Source: a virus
Direction: 5' to 3' (one strand)
IMG/VR virus record: IMGVR_UViG_3300033150_000686
Location: 1 to 39,349 of that record
Length of the DNA: 39,349 bases
Below the pieces are notes generated by a model. The model was not told where the DNA came from, did not search any database, and worked only from the letters and a program-made list of their open reading frames with translations. Numbering within the stretch: the first letter of the stretch is position 1; each line of letters starts with the position of its first letter. Below, piece after piece: positions 9,101 through 18,627 of this stretch. Both the position numbers and the translations under genes were made by a program.

Positions 9101-9886
9101 CTACAGGTATATGGGTTTTATCATGAAATCTTTATGATGCCTCAAATCCAATTCCAAAGCAATCGTCCCAGGCGGGTCGCCCCGCATAGGTCTTGCTGAA
9201 GCATAACTATCAGCTCGCTTTAAATAATGTCCCGTTATTAAATGAACTCTCGGCCGAACTAAAACCATATTATTCCGAGTATCTATCTCAAAATATTCCG
9301 TTATATGAACTACATTTTTATGTGTGTGTCCCCGCATTATTATCTGAAAATTACCAAACATCCTTTCTATATCACGTTCCAATGTATTTAGAGCAAGTCC
9401 GCCCGTTTTATTGCTTGTATAAGAATGAACCGCATAAAATTTATACGCCTTTCGGTCACCACAAATTGAACCGAAACACTCCCAGCCACAATAAGGCATA
9501 CCCAATTCATAACAAATCACGTCGGCAATATCGGTTCCCGATTCTTTAAAACTGCGCTCCTCATGGTTTCCTTTAACAAACCCTATACATTTATCGGCTA
9601 TCGGTTTTAAAAAACTCCGTAAGTATTTTATCTGTTCATTAGGGCTTATTAGCTGTTCATAAACACCAGCGCCTATACTTCTTTTGGTAGCACATTCACA
9701 AAAATCCCCCATCCCAATCCAGTAACAATTCTCGCTCTTTATGTAGTCCCTTACTTCTTTCGCTTTCTTTTCGTCATAAGTTTTAGCGCCGATATGCAAA
9801 TCGCCAAAACCTATAAGCTGAACTTTATCACTCTTAACATCAAGCTTTATGCAAACATATTCTTTTCTATTAACAGATAAATTCAT
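9101..9886 (-). CDS. Calcineurin-like metallophosphoesterase, 261 aa
   Basis: All signature motifs of the metallophosphoesterase fold are present in order: GDLHIG (D29, H31), MGD (D61), GNHEE (N107, H108), a lone H154 in AVHSY, and GHTH (H187, H189). These bind a two-metal centre that hydrolyses phosphoesters (phosphoproteins, nucleotides or nucleic-acid ends). The length is that of a single catalytic domain. It is translationally coupled to the 48-aa gene upstream (overlap of four bases) and lies between holin and ejection genes, an odd place for a nuclease-type enzyme. The substrate cannot be told from sequence. Confidence 0.85.
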   Translation of the reverse strand: MNLSVNRKEYVCIKLDVKSDKVQLIGFGDLHIGAKTYDEKKAKEVRDYIKSENCYWIGMGDFCECATKRSIGAGVYEQLISPNEQIKYLRSFLKPIADKCIGFVKGNHEERSFKESGTDIADVICYELGMPYCGWECFGSICGDRKAYKFYAVHSYTSNKTGGLALNTLERDIERMFGNFQIIMRGHTHKNVVHITEYFEIDTRNNMVLVRPRVHLITGHYLKRADSYASARPMRGDPPGTIALELDLRHHKDFMIKPIYL

Positions 9887-10479: not shown

Positions 10480-11247
10480 CTATTCCTCTGGAAATTGAAT
10501 TATTATCTGTCTCTTTTCTTTCTTTTCTGGTTTTCTTCCTTTATTCTTCTTATATTCATGAATATTCTTAATAACTGTAAGCCTCTTTCTGTCCTCTATA
10601 ATTAACATCTTAACTTCATCTACAAAGACTTTTACTTTAATAGCAAAAGCCATATCTTCGGCTGCAAAGGGTGGTATAGCAAGAGTAGGAACACCTACAA
10701 TCTTTCCAGCCTCATTAATCAAAAGCCCACCCGAATTGCCGTAATTAATAGCAGCATCTATTTGATAATATTGTGTGCCTTTGTCATCAATCCGATCATC
10801 GCTTGTTATAATTCCCTTTGTTACAGTCCATATCATACCACGCGGATGCCCTATTGCATAAACCGTATCTCCTACAAAAACCATGTGTTCGTTTGCGACA
10901 TCTTTTTCTGTAAAGTATTTTAACGGCTCATAAGGTTCTATTTTAATAACAGCAATATCCACAACCGAATGATAACCTACAAGTCTTGCGCCGTACCGAT
11001 TTAAATCTTTTGTATATATATCTATTTTAACGGCGTCAGCTACCACGTGTTTGTTTGTTACGATATACCCGTCTTCGGTAACGAGAAATCCAGAACCAAG
11101 CGCACCGCTTCCGTTATCGTATTTGGCTATTATAGCTACAACTCCTTTCTGATATTCTTTAAGCCAGACATTCTGCGAATAATCACAAAATGCGCCCGCT
11201 GGAAGAAAAATAAATACCACCAGTAAAATTAAAATTAGCTTTTTCAT
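10480..11247 (-). CDS. Secreted trypsin-like (S1C, HtrA/DegP-type) serine protease, 255 aa
   Basis: ATG at 11247 has TGGAGG at ideal spacing; a further ATG at 11259 overlaps the upstream stop and would add four residues. Residues 1-20 form a signal peptide (MKKLILILLVVFIFLPAGAF). The catalytic triad is clear: H67 in TNKHVV, D97 in VVDIAVIKI and S172 in NYGNSGGLL. No PDZ domain follows; the tail is basic. The product should act in the periplasm or outside. A degP-like protease inside a phage lysis cassette is unusual and may assist envelope breakdown. Confidence 0.88.
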   Translation of the reverse strand: MKKLILILLVVFIFLPAGAFCDYSQNVWLKEYQKGVVAIIAKYDNGSGALGSGFLVTEDGYIVTNKHVVADAVKIDIYTKDLNRYGARLVGYHSVVDIAVIKIEPYEPLKYFTEKDVANEHMVFVGDTVYAIGHPRGMIWTVTKGIITSDDRIDDKGTQYYQIDAAINYGNSGGLLINEAGKIVGVPTLAIPPFAAEDMAFAIKVKVFVDEVKMLIIEDRKRLTVIKNIHEYKKNKGRKPEKKEKRQIIIQFPEE

Positions 11248-11258
11248 AAAAACCTCCA

Positions 11259-11435
11259 TCAGTCACTGTTGTTAAGCTCTTTAGCTACTTCTTTGGTCAA
11301 GAAGTATCGTATGTAATCTTCACACAATTGTTTAATTTTTGTAACCGTTAAAATTATTTTCTCTCCTTTTGACCATTTTTTATAAAGTTGCTGCTGCAAA
11401 CGTTCAAATTCCGTAATATAAGATGCATCTGTCAT
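11259..11435 (-). CDS. Small 58-aa protein in the lysis cassette
   Basis: ATG at 11435 overlaps the stop of the endolysin gene by four bases, and its own TGA at 11259-11261 overlaps an ATG of the protease gene, so three genes are translationally chained. The product is charged and helical (TEFERLQQQLYKKWSKGEKI then KQLCEDYIRYFLTKEVAKEL) with no membrane segment. Function unknown. Confidence 0.7.
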   Translation of the reverse strand: MTDASYITEFERLQQQLYKKWSKGEKIILTVTKIKQLCEDYIRYFLTKEVAKELNNSD

Positions 11436-11887
11436 TCTGTCAAAGCTCCTATGAAATTAAGTAAATCGTAATCATAAGTTTGTTTGCCATTAACATTATA
11501 AGCAAGCCAAGTACTTATATAGTCTTGCTGGCGCAGGTCAAAATGAAATCCTGGATGTTGCCAATCTGGATAATAACCAAAACCTCGCACTCCCATTTTA
11601 GACATTATTATATAAACTTCTATCGGCGAAAGCCCTACAAAATGTCCGTCTACCGCAAGCCCTTTATAATGATAAGAATTAGGACTGTGCTTACCCTGAT
11701 TTATATCATGGATTATAAACATACCTTCTTGCCAGCCGTAAGAAAGTTTAGCTATCGTTACTGCCCTGTCAAGCCACCGCATAAACTTTGCATCTATTCC
11801 TTCAGCTTTCTCGAAAATTCGGCGCCCGAATATATCCCTTTCATTAATATCAAAATTATGAAGTTTTTTAATTTCTTCCTTAGTCAT
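11432..11887 (-). CDS. Endolysin: M15-family D,D-peptidase, 151 aa
   Basis: SYHYKGLAVD (residues 71-80) is the S-x-H-x-x-G-x-A-x-D zinc motif of M15_3 peptidases, giving H73 and D80, and WQHPGFHFD provides the third zinc histidine H115 with D117. M15 enzymes cut D-Ala or cross-link peptides of peptidoglycan; phage forms are endolysins. There is no signal peptide, so export through the holin is expected. Its ribosome site AAGGAGGTG lies in the loop of a perfect hairpin (11888-11916), directly downstream of the tmRNA-like element. Confidence 0.88.
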   Translation of the reverse strand: MTKEEIKKLHNFDINERDIFGRRIFEKAEGIDAKFMRWLDRAVTIAKLSYGWQEGMFIIHDINQGKHSPNSYHYKGLAVDGHFVGLSPIEVYIIMSKMGVRGFGYYPDWQHPGFHFDLRQQDYISTWLAYNVNGKQTYDYDLLNFIGALTE

Positions 11888-11922: not shown

Positions 11923-11998
11923 TGGAGACGTCGGGAATCGAACCCGACTCCAGCAGTTACCGTTTTGGTCTTACTGCTGTCGAACCCTCATCGTCCCC
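11923..11998 (-). ncRNA. Minimal tmRNA-like tRNA domain (76 nt, no tag or pseudoknot region)
   Basis: Read on the minus strand, GGGGACG (11998-11992) pairs over 7 bp with CGTCTCC (11930-11924), leaving discriminator A at 11923. The third pair is G-U, the alanine identity element. A 12-base D-loop with GGGTTCGA follows, as in bacterial tmRNA, which lacks a D-stem. Then comes a 7-bp P2-like stem (CAGCAGT with ACTGCTG, 15-base loop), GAG, and a perfect T-arm TCGGG-TTCGATT-CCCGA. From memory, both ends closely match B. subtilis ssrA, but the whole mRNA-like and pseudoknot part is missing and CCA is not encoded. A canonical tRNA is excluded: no D-stem and no 7-base anticodon loop. The stop codon of the overlapping ORF lies at 11957-11959. 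Confidence 0.75.
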
Positions 11999-12205
11999 GC
12001 CAAAACCTGTATAATTTATTGCTCCATCCGTAGTCTGTGGTATTATATATATAGGACAACCAGTATTAATTTCTTGCCCACAATATGGACATATTCTTTT
12101 ATTAGAAACACAATTAGGATATGGACATATATATCTATTTGTAAAAGGTTCTGGATACATTACAGAACCGTAATGTGGACAATAAAATGTAGTAACAATA
12201 GTCAT
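11957..12205 (-). CDS. Zinc-ribbon 82-aa protein whose 3' end overlaps the tmRNA-like element
   Basis: ATG 12205 follows CAGGAGAAATAA. The body contains CPHYG, CPYPNC and CPYCG motifs, a multi-cysteine zinc-binding layout, then a Gly-rich end. The last 13 codons (GDDEGSTAVRPKR) and the TAA stop are encoded by the 5' half of the tmRNA-like element, so translating ribosomes must disrupt that fold while terminating inside it. A shorter true protein is possible, but no earlier stop exists. Function of the protein is unknown. Confidence 0.7.
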   Translation of the reverse strand: MTIVTTFYCPHYGSVMYPEPFTNRYICPYPNCVSNKRICPYCGQEINTGCPIYIIPQTTDGAINYTGFGGDDEGSTAVRPKR

Positions 12206-16303: not shown

Positions 16304-17200
16304 TTATGTTCTTGCTGCTGTTACAATTATTCTAAAGTAAACATAATAACCACTATTTACATTATCCATACATGTCAAAGTAAATGTAACTTTATTAGTA
16401 CCAAAACTTACATTCGTAAAAGTCATATAGTTCTCACTCCATGTGCCCCCATTATACATAAGGTCATATGTATAATTAGCTTCTCCAGGATCTGAGGTAC
16501 CAACTGCATATTTTATTATAAAATTCATAATAGCCGTCGGATTAAAAGAAAACCCCGTTACATCTACGGTAAATGTATGTTTTGTACCATTGCCAGCATG
16601 ACTGGATTTTACTGATTTTGTTTCTATTTGCATAGCAATCACCTCGTTTCCATTTTTATCTATAATTTTACCATTAAAGGTTTTATCGCCATATATAGTT
16701 TGTGACGACTTACTAAGCCTCACATAGGATGAGCCATCAGGTATGTTATCTAAACTTACTGACCCCGTTCCTGTTAAACCAGCTATATGTTCAGCTTGCA
16801 CTGCGTCATTAGCTATCTTTGCATTAGTAATTGCATCATTCGCAATACTATTAGCAGTTATCTGATGACTTGTGTTAACCCCAGTTACCTTTCTATAAGT
16901 AGAACCATCTGATAAATCATCTAAAGTCTTTCCATTGAAATATTTATTTGTAGAACCTTCAGGAATATTATCAGTATCTACATTTCCAGTACCCGTCAAA
17001 CCAGCTATGTGTTCTGCTTTTATTACATCGTCTTTAACATCAAGATTGGCTGGCGTATCAGGATCAGTAACCCAGTTATCAAAAAATGTTATCATTCGTT
17101 TATATATTTCACTGCGAGTTTCTCTTATTTTATCATCAATAGTTGAAGCCGCATCAGAACCTGCGGGCTCTGAATTGAACGTACTATCCCACGATCTCAT
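16304..17200 (-). CDS. Tail fiber / receptor-binding protein, 298 aa
   Basis: The ATG overlaps the end of the homing endonuclease gene by four bases, with its ribosome site AAGGAGAAGG inside that gene's last codons. Two copies of an AEHIAGLTGTG-x-V-x-x-DNIP[ED]GS motif appear at about residues 62-82 and 138-156, typical of fiber repeats, plus an N-terminal helical part. The C-terminal 120 residues form a beta-rich head domain with Thr/Tyr/Asn patches. It is likely a second fiber or adhesin. Confidence 0.75.
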   Translation of the reverse strand: MRSWDSTFNSEPAGSDAASTIDDKIRETRSEIYKRMITFFDNWVTDPDTPANLDVKDDVIKAEHIAGLTGTGNVDTDNIPEGSTNKYFNGKTLDDLSDGSTYRKVTGVNTSHQITANSIANDAITNAKIANDAVQAEHIAGLTGTGSVSLDNIPDGSSYVRLSKSSQTIYGDKTFNGKIIDKNGNEVIAMQIETKSVKSSHAGNGTKHTFTVDVTGFSFNPTAIMNFIIKYAVGTSDPGEANYTYDLMYNGGTWSENYMTFTNVSFGTNKVTFTLTCMDNVNSGYYVYFRIIVTAART

Positions 17201-17973
17201 GGTGCCTTCTCCTTACTTTCTTTTAGTCTTGCAAAATATTTTTTTAGACTTTCACTAATTTTTCTTTTAGTTTCTTCGCTATGATGTTTTCCGTACATAG
17301 GATTGTTTTCACCACGCGTATTTTGACTTATTTTATCTCTGACTCTTAAGAGACCTTCTCTTATTCTTCTTCTGTGTTCTTCTGAATACTTTAATCCTTT
17401 ATGTCCCTCGCTTATCTTCTTACGAACTTCGGGCGGAAGTTTTCGCCCAAGTAATTTACTTCTTCGTTTTTCCACCGCTTCACGTGGCATCTTTCTGCCT
17501 TTATTAAGCTCTGACATTCTTTTCTTGAACTCCTCAGAATGTCTTTTACCATAGAAAGGATTATTTTTACCTTTATTTCTTTCACTCCATAGTTTTCTGC
17601 GTTCTTCTGTCCACCAGTTCTTTATTTTTTCTTTAGCTTTCTCTATACTCTCCTTTGGTATTATATTGCTCTTAATCTCAGTCATTAAATTGTAACCATA
17701 TTCTTTTAAATAACTTTTATATTCATTTATATATAACTCCTCCATCAAATCTAAATATTCTTTTACTAAAGGTACCGTAGGTGCTTCTACTTTTGTTAAT
17801 ATCTGCCATCCCCAATTTGGATATTTTCTAAAAGCACAATTAAAATAACAATTTCTGTGCTTTGCTTGATATTTATGCTCTATAACTCTTATTCTTAAAC
17901 TACGAGCGGTTTGCCCAATATAAACTTTTCCATTATCCAAATTAATAGCCTTATAAATCAATCCAGTTGGCAT
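17197..17973 (-). CDS. GIY-YIG homing endonuclease with NUMOD3 repeats, 258 aa
   Basis: LIYKAINLDNGKVYIGQT (residues 5-22) is the GIY-YIG core, followed by the conserved Arg (R28) and Glu in MEELYI (E79), the catalytic pair. After residue 125 come DNA-binding modules of NUMOD3 type, GKNNPFYGKRHSEE and GENNPMYGKHHSEE, with HTH-like basic stretches between. It is a mobile free-standing endonuclease inserted between tail adaptor and fiber genes. Its last codons carry the ribosome site for the next gene. No intron is apparent. Confidence 0.92.
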   Translation of the reverse strand: MPTGLIYKAINLDNGKVYIGQTARSLRIRVIEHKYQAKHRNCYFNCAFRKYPNWGWQILTKVEAPTVPLVKEYLDLMEELYINEYKSYLKEYGYNLMTEIKSNIIPKESIEKAKEKIKNWWTEERRKLWSERNKGKNNPFYGKRHSEEFKKRMSELNKGRKMPREAVEKRRSKLLGRKLPPEVRKKISEGHKGLKYSEEHRRRIREGLLRVRDKISQNTRGENNPMYGKHHSEETKRKISESLKKYFARLKESKEKAP

Positions 17974-17982
17974 TATTTCTCC

Positions 17983-18627
17983 TTACAAATATGGATGTTC
18001 TAAAAGTTTATAATCACCCTCTAGTTGCTCATGTTGCCAATCAAGAAGTTTCGGTACTTCAAATCTGTAAAATTCCCGTTCCCAAATTGCTATTAATCTC
18101 TCAATACCGAGCTGTTTTGCTACTAACATCGTAGCGCCAGCTATTATAGGTCCATCGCCGTAAACCTGACTTAATATCGCTTCGTCCGTATCGTCTGACA
18201 ATTCGGTTTCTTTAGCATAATACCAAATCTTAACATTATAAGCATCATCGGGAATCGGCCGAAAATATATATATGGAGAATTGCTTACAAACCTTATCTC
18301 AAAATACTGTGGTTTGCCCGTACCAGAATCGTTATATTCTTCCTGAGCCATAGGATAAAGAGTAGTCCAGTCATCTCCATCTTCTACCGTTACGCCGTCT
18401 TTAACCACTCCGATAAATCCAGTAAGAGAAGAAAGGTCTATATATTCAGTATCGGCGGTCGTAGATACGGTCGTATTGTTTTTATACGGTCTTAATCCCT
18501 CTAATGGTAAATACTCAGTCAAAATTCTATTTATAGCGGTTTTTATCATGTCTTCTGTCGTAGTATCATTTACATCAGTTCGACCGATGTTCCGCCGAAC
18601 TTCTGTAATCAAATCGGATAATTGCAC
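17983..18627 (-). CDS. Head-to-tail adaptor protein, 214 aa
   Basis: Begins at GTG 18627 behind AAGGGGTAGTAGA. MQLSDLITEVRRNIG with TTEDMIKTAINRIL is the helical N-terminal bundle typical of podovirus adaptors (P22 gp4/T7 gp11-like), followed by a beta section (YFRPIPDDAYNVKIWYYAKE) and a C-terminal helix. It would extend the portal and dock the nozzle. It is downstream of capsid genes and before the fibers, as expected. Family assignment by pattern. Confidence 0.75.
   Translation of the reverse strand: MQLSDLITEVRRNIGRTDVNDTTTEDMIKTAINRILTEYLPLEGLRPYKNNTTVSTTADTEYIDLSSLTGFIGVVKDGVTVEDGDDWTTLYPMAQEEYNDSGTGKPQYFEIRFVSNSPYIYFRPIPDDAYNVKIWYYAKETELSDDTDEAILSQVYGDGPIIAGATMLVAKQLGIERLIAIWEREFYRFEVPKLLDWQHEQLEGDYKLLEHPYL

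Follow-up and report, generated by a model that had tools for sequence, protein, structure and literature searches.

Bacteria rescue stalled ribosomes with an RNA, transfer-messenger RNA (tmRNA), whose two ends form a tRNA-like domain (TLD). Mycobacteriophage DS6A has a tmRNA that consists of this domain only (Mao et al. 2009, as related in PMC4131195 and PMC11915505), and, in the same two accounts, a molecule of the DS6A type, likewise TLD-only, "strongly inhibits tmRNA" in E. coli, whether or not it can be charged, perhaps by titrating SmpB. The 2025 tmRNA database counts nine unpermuted tmRNAs lacking a coding sequence (CDS-less) among its 97,179 sequences, and 79 phage tmRNAs in all (PMC11915505). 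Tag reading frames are also missing from the mitochondrial tmRNAs of jakobids and oomycetes (RF02544; Jacob et al. 2004, as cited in PMC11915505), which are conserved together with SmpB, and from the ~65-nt plastid tmRNAs of Mallomonadaceae (PMC11915505). The subject of this report is a TLD-only tmRNA sequence of 76 nt at 11998→11923, on the minus strand of IMG/VR virus record IMGVR_UViG_3300033150_000686 (positions 1 to 39,349; this entire 39-kb stretch is referred to below as the window), together with its relatives in other phages.

The likeness to DS6A is that of one TLD-only phage RNA to another, a similar molecule being, in the published accounts, an inhibitor of tmRNA in E. coli. However, DS6A is a single reported phage, whereas the elements described here occur in an estimated few hundred viral contigs, from unrelated phages, and most copies share a common 76-80-nt architecture (for DS6A, the comparison is with its published description only). 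The organellar tmRNAs likewise keep the TLD and have lost the tag frame, but they work with a nucleus-encoded SmpB and the mitochondrial genes are usually permuted; the phage gene is unpermuted, and its host presumably has a normal tmRNA. The full-length tmRNAs of mycobacteriophages Bxz1 and Wildcat, Bacillus phage G, and Stenotrophomonas and marine myophages are also phage-encoded ssrA homologues with an alanine-type TLD, but they carry the tag and pseudoknots, both of which the TLD-only RNA lacks. (The Wildcat tmRNA is expressed 15-fold above the structural genes; PMC7474061.) Against the standard bacterial tmRNA (RF00023), the acceptor stem with its G3•U70 pair, the D-loop, the base of P2, the linker and the T-arm match end to end, whereas ~280 nt of pseudoknots and tag frame are gone, with a short loop or a small hairpin capping the P2-like stem instead.

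A tmRNA reduced to its tRNA-like domain

From 5' to 3' the RNA reads GGGGACG / ATGAGGGTTCGA / CAGCAGT-AAGACCAAAACGGTA-ACTGCTG / GAG / TCGGG-TTCGATT-CCCGA / CGTCTCC / A, with its 5' end at 11998 and discriminator base A73 at 11923; all of its parts lie on the minus strand. The 7-bp acceptor stem (helix 1 of the covariation alignments discussed below) joins the 5' strand at 11992..11998, with G3 at 11996, to the 3' strand at 11924..11930, with U70 at 11926 paired to G3. The stemless 12-nt D-loop that follows (11980..11991) includes the U17-C18-G19-A20 positions (placed by the custom model and by PMC8363625). The 7-bp P2-like stem (5' strand at 11973..11979, 3' strand at 11951..11957; helix 2) encloses a 15-nt inner loop (11958..11972), located where a full tmRNA carries its pseudoknots and tag frame; a fold test and the comparison of relatives indicate that this loop can itself pair as ACC-aaaac-GGT, a small hairpin common to most relatives. 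The A of the GAG linker (11948..11950) is the equivalent of E. coli A334, which belongs to the pocket for SmpB Trp122 (PMC8363625), and the T-arm (11931..11947; helix 3) has a perfect 5-bp stem and a 7-nt loop. CCA is not encoded, so the host's CCA-adding enzyme would be needed. A sequence-only reading of this DNA had proposed these structural elements without specifying a strand; all of them are present.

The Rfam tmRNA model RF00023 matches the RNA with 61.7 bits (gathering threshold 47; E 6.7e-22) over model positions 1-374; the alignment runs from end to end with the tag/pseudoknot region absent, and it is the sole Rfam match in the whole window. A custom covariance model built from related phages gives 75.9 bits, the window sequence having been part of its training set. 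The fold z-score is -2.9, with 1 of 200 shuffles equally good. ARAGORN, searching for both tRNA and tmRNA, calls neither in the window. Neither a tag reading frame with a resume codon nor pseudoknots PK1-PK4 are found in the 76 nt; the alanine-identity elements G3•U70 and A73 are there, as are the features recognized by SmpB (a stemless D-loop with UUCGA and an A334-type linker), and the gene layout is that of a CDS-less tmRNA: unpermuted, with TLD halves joined by a short stem-loop and no tag frame between them. On this homology, and on the covariation described below, the window RNA is a phage gene for a TLD-only tmRNA, as the sequence-only reading had it.

Two other assignments were rejected. 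A canonical tRNA (RF00005) does not accommodate the missing D-stem, a loop that varies freely in sequence and length (down to 2-5 nt in some copies) or the negative ARAGORN result, and RF00023 wins the clan competition for the window RNA and its relatives. A permuted or two-piece tmRNA (RF01849-RF01851, RF04321) would not have its 5' half preceding its 3' half, and Rfam returns no such match.

Selection and distribution in unrelated phages

Relatives were sought with the pattern GGGGN{6,9}GGNTTCGACN{16,46}GGTTCRANTCC, which brings the TLD halves too near each other for a normal tmRNA. The pattern forces GGGG, GGNTTCGAC and GGTTCRANTCC, so conservation at these positions is no evidence; U70, A73, the linker and the stems are unforced and can be cited. 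It matched at least 120 IMG/VR viral contigs in its strict form, and the matches look like TLDs capped by a short stem-loop. A complete scan with a sub-pattern found 15 contigs, 7 of which were already within the first 120; this overlap suggests a total of ~250 viral contigs, with a wide error. In bacterial and archaeal genomes the pattern extended by TCCA occurs at 22 places over 257 Gb, so the TLD-only element is strongly enriched in viruses. Rfam prefers tmRNA over tRNA in 17 of 17 relatives tested, all of them, like the window RNA, matching over the full length of the model with its centre deleted and lying above the RF00023 cut-off, which is also passed in 48 of 49 carrier records.

In a MAFFT alignment of 30 sequences, 97.2% of cells pair, double-sided changes number 174 against a shuffled mean of 51, and the covariation score is 0.765 against ≤0.12 for slid partners. 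Run over 100 loci, the model made from these 30 sequences gives a single match per locus and, at E ≤ 1e-5, picks up no ordinary tRNA. An alignment of 100 sequences, which was fitted to the structure and is biased in its favour to that extent, gives 97.0% pairing cells, 588 double-sided changes (shuffled mean 175) and a score of 0.728. Covariation is strong in all three helices: acceptor, P2-like and T-stem. The sequence-only reading had staked itself on covariation in homologous phages and on the region being something other than the ordinary end of a coding sequence; the covariation is strong, and a coding end does not explain the region. The complete TLD, judged by these alignments, is selected as an RNA structure across many phages, its tag frame and pseudoknots gone.

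The bases that matter for function are as constant as the helices. AlaRS recognizes its RNA by G3•U70 and A73 (PMC3968760). G3•U70 is found in 100 of 100 aligned copies; U70 occurs in 93 of the 94 unique viral elements, position 70 having been unconstrained in the first scan (and in 114 of 115 unique elements, a set that includes the 22 genome matches, where the pattern forced U70), and the G3-C70 version of the otherwise identical pattern occurs zero times in 2.9 million viral contigs. A73 is present at 143 of 143 loci. For SmpB, the cryo-electron microscopy structures show contacts with D-loop positions U17-C18-G19-A20 of E. coli tmRNA, with G19 packing on SmpB and A334 helping to build the Trp122 pocket (PMC8363625). 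G19 is also present in the element's D-loop; the D-loop contact bases were forced by the search pattern, however, so that the linker A, which was unforced and which 93 of the 94 unique viral elements have, is alone independent evidence. From these determinants we infer, on good grounds, that the RNA would be alanylated and bound by SmpB.

What lies within the P2-like stem is less uniform. Most copies have an inner motif, AAAnCCN-CANG-NGGA, the third pair of which covaries (CCG/CGG, CCC/GGG, CCA/TGG, CCT/AGG); some are without it, P2 being closed by 2-7 nt. Extra-small copies of 61-65 nt (L018 4080-4143, L019 6437-6497, L029 10530-10594) have a short P2 and a tiny loop, TTCG in L018, and resemble the TLD construct of the SmpB crystal structure. 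The inner loop might have concealed a two-alanine tag, but this was rejected: the loops are short (2 to 30 nt) and have no common frame.

No SmpB gene is found in any of the 49 carrier records searched (control genomes were positive), so host SmpB must serve. One of the 49 also has a full tmRNA: the 124-kb contig IMGVR_UViG_3300025362_000004 (L011) carries the TLD-only RNA at 1769-1847 and a full-length tmRNA at 77588-77979. The others have one strong tmRNA-type match each, additional weak matches being tRNA-like. Intact copies exist in at least six cultured phages: Streptomyces phages Shaeky, LuckySocke, GiJojo, pSt2308 and BRock, and Stenotrophomonas virus Jojan60, in none of which is the copy annotated as tmRNA; that of LuckySocke lies at 17977-18054 of OR725497. 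Streptomyces phage Alone3 has a decayed copy (L158 601-677; 48 bits against 68-71 in relatives), which has lost the UUCGAC D-loop and one T-stem pair and retained G3•U70. On another viral contig (L083), a RAGATH-24 RNA (Rfam, 54.1 bits; 9494-9696, minus strand) lies ~1 kb from the TLD-only RNA.

The bacterial copies are a separate matter. The pattern scan found an 83-nt TLD-only tmRNA in eight Candidatus Poribacteria genomes (L122, L124, L127, L128, L132, L134, L140, L141), and a sample of the phylum added two or three further genomes. The copy looks chromosomal and has a conserved place in the eight: seven have a pyridoxal phosphate (PLP)-dependent decarboxylase-type gene, on the opposite strand, as its neighbour, and in four its other flank is occupied by a Na/Ca exchanger-type gene. 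Six of the eight also possess a normal ssrA of ~355 nt, adjacent to smpB. By this arrangement, a bacterial lineage may use the same tag-less device as a second tmRNA. Two matches in Microvirga lenta (L123 2189-2276, L126 6794-6881) have identical matched sequence on different scaffolds; the element is divergent, with imperfect acceptor pairing, and may belong to a repeated sequence or a mobile element.

Genomic setting

The genes of the window include a Phage_capsid_3 major capsid, portal, terminase, tail-fibre/S74, endolysin-like, 3TM-holin and DnaB-like gene; the capsid, portal, terminase and tail-fibre genes mark the virus as a tailed phage. The RNA is on the same strand as the structural and lysis genes. 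Downstream of it, after ~36 nt, starts the endolysin-like gene (11432..11887, minus strand; PHROG 894 endolysin, E 3.1e-5), within a late lysis/structural gene block. On the upstream side, the ORF (open reading frame) list has an 82-aa frame with CxxC pairs, zinc-ribbon-like (11957..12205, minus strand), which matches no Pfam or PHROG family; its final 14 codons, counting the stop, are shared with the 5' half of the RNA, and an RNase P cut at 11998 would cost the frame its stop codon. Among the elements, the upstream gene seems often to run up to the RNA or into it in this way (L046, with the ORF stop 28 nt inside; L027; L040; L121; and 11957-12205 of the window), so that an RNase P cut would leave an mRNA with its stop removed or terminal. 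A promoter-like TTAATA-16-TATAAT (12042..12069, minus strand) ends 44 nt upstream of the RNA, weak and in an AT-rich background; such sites number 11 against 5.5 expected from a shuffled background, which is not evidence alone. No terminator-like sites were found around it.

Two other genes of the window may be recorded. A 258-aa ORF at 17197-17973 (minus strand), between structural genes, resembles, to judge by its sequence, a GIY-YIG homing endonuclease, and a trypsin-like serine protease gene (Trypsin_2, E 5e-27; 10480-11259, minus strand), with an apparent signal peptide, sits between the phage endolysin and holin genes.

The window phage is isolated. Its 592-aa structural protein and major capsid protein retrieve no related loci, blastn of 4 kb of the window against 50,697 phage records gives no match, the terminase has remote relatives only (at most 26% identity among the matches listed), and the acceptor pattern GGGGACG/CGTCTCC occurs in no other viral contig. 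Conservation consequently had to be shown on distant phages. Across these the element has no consistent gene partner, and its neighbourhoods are diverse; the only recurrent neighbour pair is that of head maturation protease and major capsid genes, with head maturation proteases upstream of six elements and major head proteins downstream of six. Most carriers have no tRNAs near the element, the Streptomyces phage copies sitting in or beside tRNA arrays; ARAGORN's tRNA search called the element, as a tRNA, in only 2 of 94 loci, and most ORFs that overlap the elements look spurious.

What the RNA may do in infected cells

The best explanation of these facts, held here with moderate confidence, is that the RNA acts as an alanylatable, dominant-negative competitor of host tmRNA by way of host SmpB. 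Host RNase P and the CCA-adding enzyme would mature it out of a late transcript, host AlaRS would charge it, and host SmpB and EF-Tu would bind it; the charged complex would then be a rival of host tmRNA, both for SmpB and for the ribosomes that stall on truncated mRNAs. Without a resume codon, no degradation tag could be added, and host trans-translation would either be suppressed during infection or finish untagged. The phage would gain by having its incomplete proteins spared tag-directed proteolysis and ribosome rescue diverted to untagged routes. The suggestion in the sequence-only reading that such an RNA might block trans-translation, or act as a decoy, agrees with the published experiment on an RNA of this kind, as PMC4131195 and PMC11915505 describe it; its further suggestion, that the RNA marks the 3' end of an mRNA, found no support.

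Several considerations weigh against competition. G3•U70 is absolutely conserved, although inhibition by the TLD is reportedly independent of alanylation (as PMC4131195 presents it). A sponge should not need charging, yet the determinants of charging never vary, which favours action on the ribosome as Ala-RNA; entry into the ribosome in that form, perhaps in a productive role, may outweigh titration. The decayed copy of Alone3 implies that the function is dispensable, and a purely anti-host role does not predict the second, tag-less chromosomal copy of Poribacteria. Full phage tmRNAs, moreover, are usually assumed to help the phage and not to block the pathway.

Productive rescue without a tag is a distinctly less probable account. 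The charged RNA and SmpB would enter stalled ribosomes and accept the nascent chain, one or more alanines would be added untemplated, and the chain would be dropped or hydrolysed, in the manner of the tag-frame-less mitochondrial tmRNAs or of alanine tailing. Absolute retention of G3•U70 and A73 means that charging is under selection; the mitochondrial RNAs are conserved with SmpB (PMC11915505); the smallest natural copies, such as L018, resemble the crystallographers' TLD construct; and TLD with SmpB makes polyalanine without a template in vitro (Shimizu & Ueda 2006, as cited in PMC3929946). What the accounts in PMC4131195 and PMC11915505 report for a TLD in E. coli is, however, inhibition of tmRNA, and no way is known for a ribosome to terminate when there is no resume codon. 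In a broader and somewhat less credible form of this proposal, an alanine-charged mini-tmRNA would, in many phage lineages, use host SmpB to get into stalled ribosomes and there end nascent chains or tail them with alanine, untemplated, as a tag-free rescue late in infection that replaces host tagging, and Poribacteria would have adopted it as a second chromosomal tmRNA.

It is improbable that the RNA acts in trans on some other target, as a competitor for AlaRS or EF-Tu or as a counter-defence against a host system that targets tRNA or tmRNA, the tmRNA determinants being docking sites only. Such a role would fit the accessory-gene pattern of one copy per genome in most carriers amid varied neighbourhoods, and an RNA with no anticodon would presumably escape anticodon nucleases; a competitor for AlaRS or EF-Tu would not need the conserved SmpB-contact bases of D-loop and linker, an objection for which the linker A alone counts independently, the D-loop bases having been forced by the pattern. 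Very doubtful is a role in cis, as a processing signal in late mRNA that separates or stabilises flanking messages such as those of head protease and major capsid: the six-fold recurrence of head genes on either side and the ~36 nt between the window RNA and its endolysin-like gene speak for it, but an RNase P site in cis needs neither G3•U70 nor the A334 equivalent, both nearly invariant, and the neighbourhoods are otherwise diverse, tRNA arrays included. That the element is what remains of an attachment site or of an ssrA in decay, or is like a tRNA by chance, is most improbable, even though phages often integrate in ssrA and Alone3 proves that decay occurs: at an attachment site only the 3' end would be expected, and here the 5' half is complete too; Rfam tmRNA beats tRNA and ARAGORN sees no tRNA in the window; and the double-sided changes and 97% pairing over 100 sequences refute decay or chance origin for the family.

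The kind of RNA is already known, from DS6A (the sequence-only reading knew of no tag-less tmRNA in phages, and DS6A, in the accounts cited at the outset, is a published case); what is new is the breadth of its occurrence, the shared architecture and the absolute conservation of G3•U70. The literature searched, which left subscription papers and most preprints outside its scope, nowhere describes the element as an RNA widespread among phages, and ARAGORN, a common program for tRNA and tmRNA annotation, is largely blind to it. These elements are also naturally occurring material for testing directly how a charged TLD behaves on a stalled ribosome when no resume codon is present. A tag-less phage tmRNA was formerly a curiosity from one mycobacteriophage; the few hundred viral contigs now estimated to carry one suggest that host ribosome rescue is a pathway with which many phages interfere or which they short-circuit. 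If so, interference with ribosome rescue would be a recurring phage strategy and not an exception.
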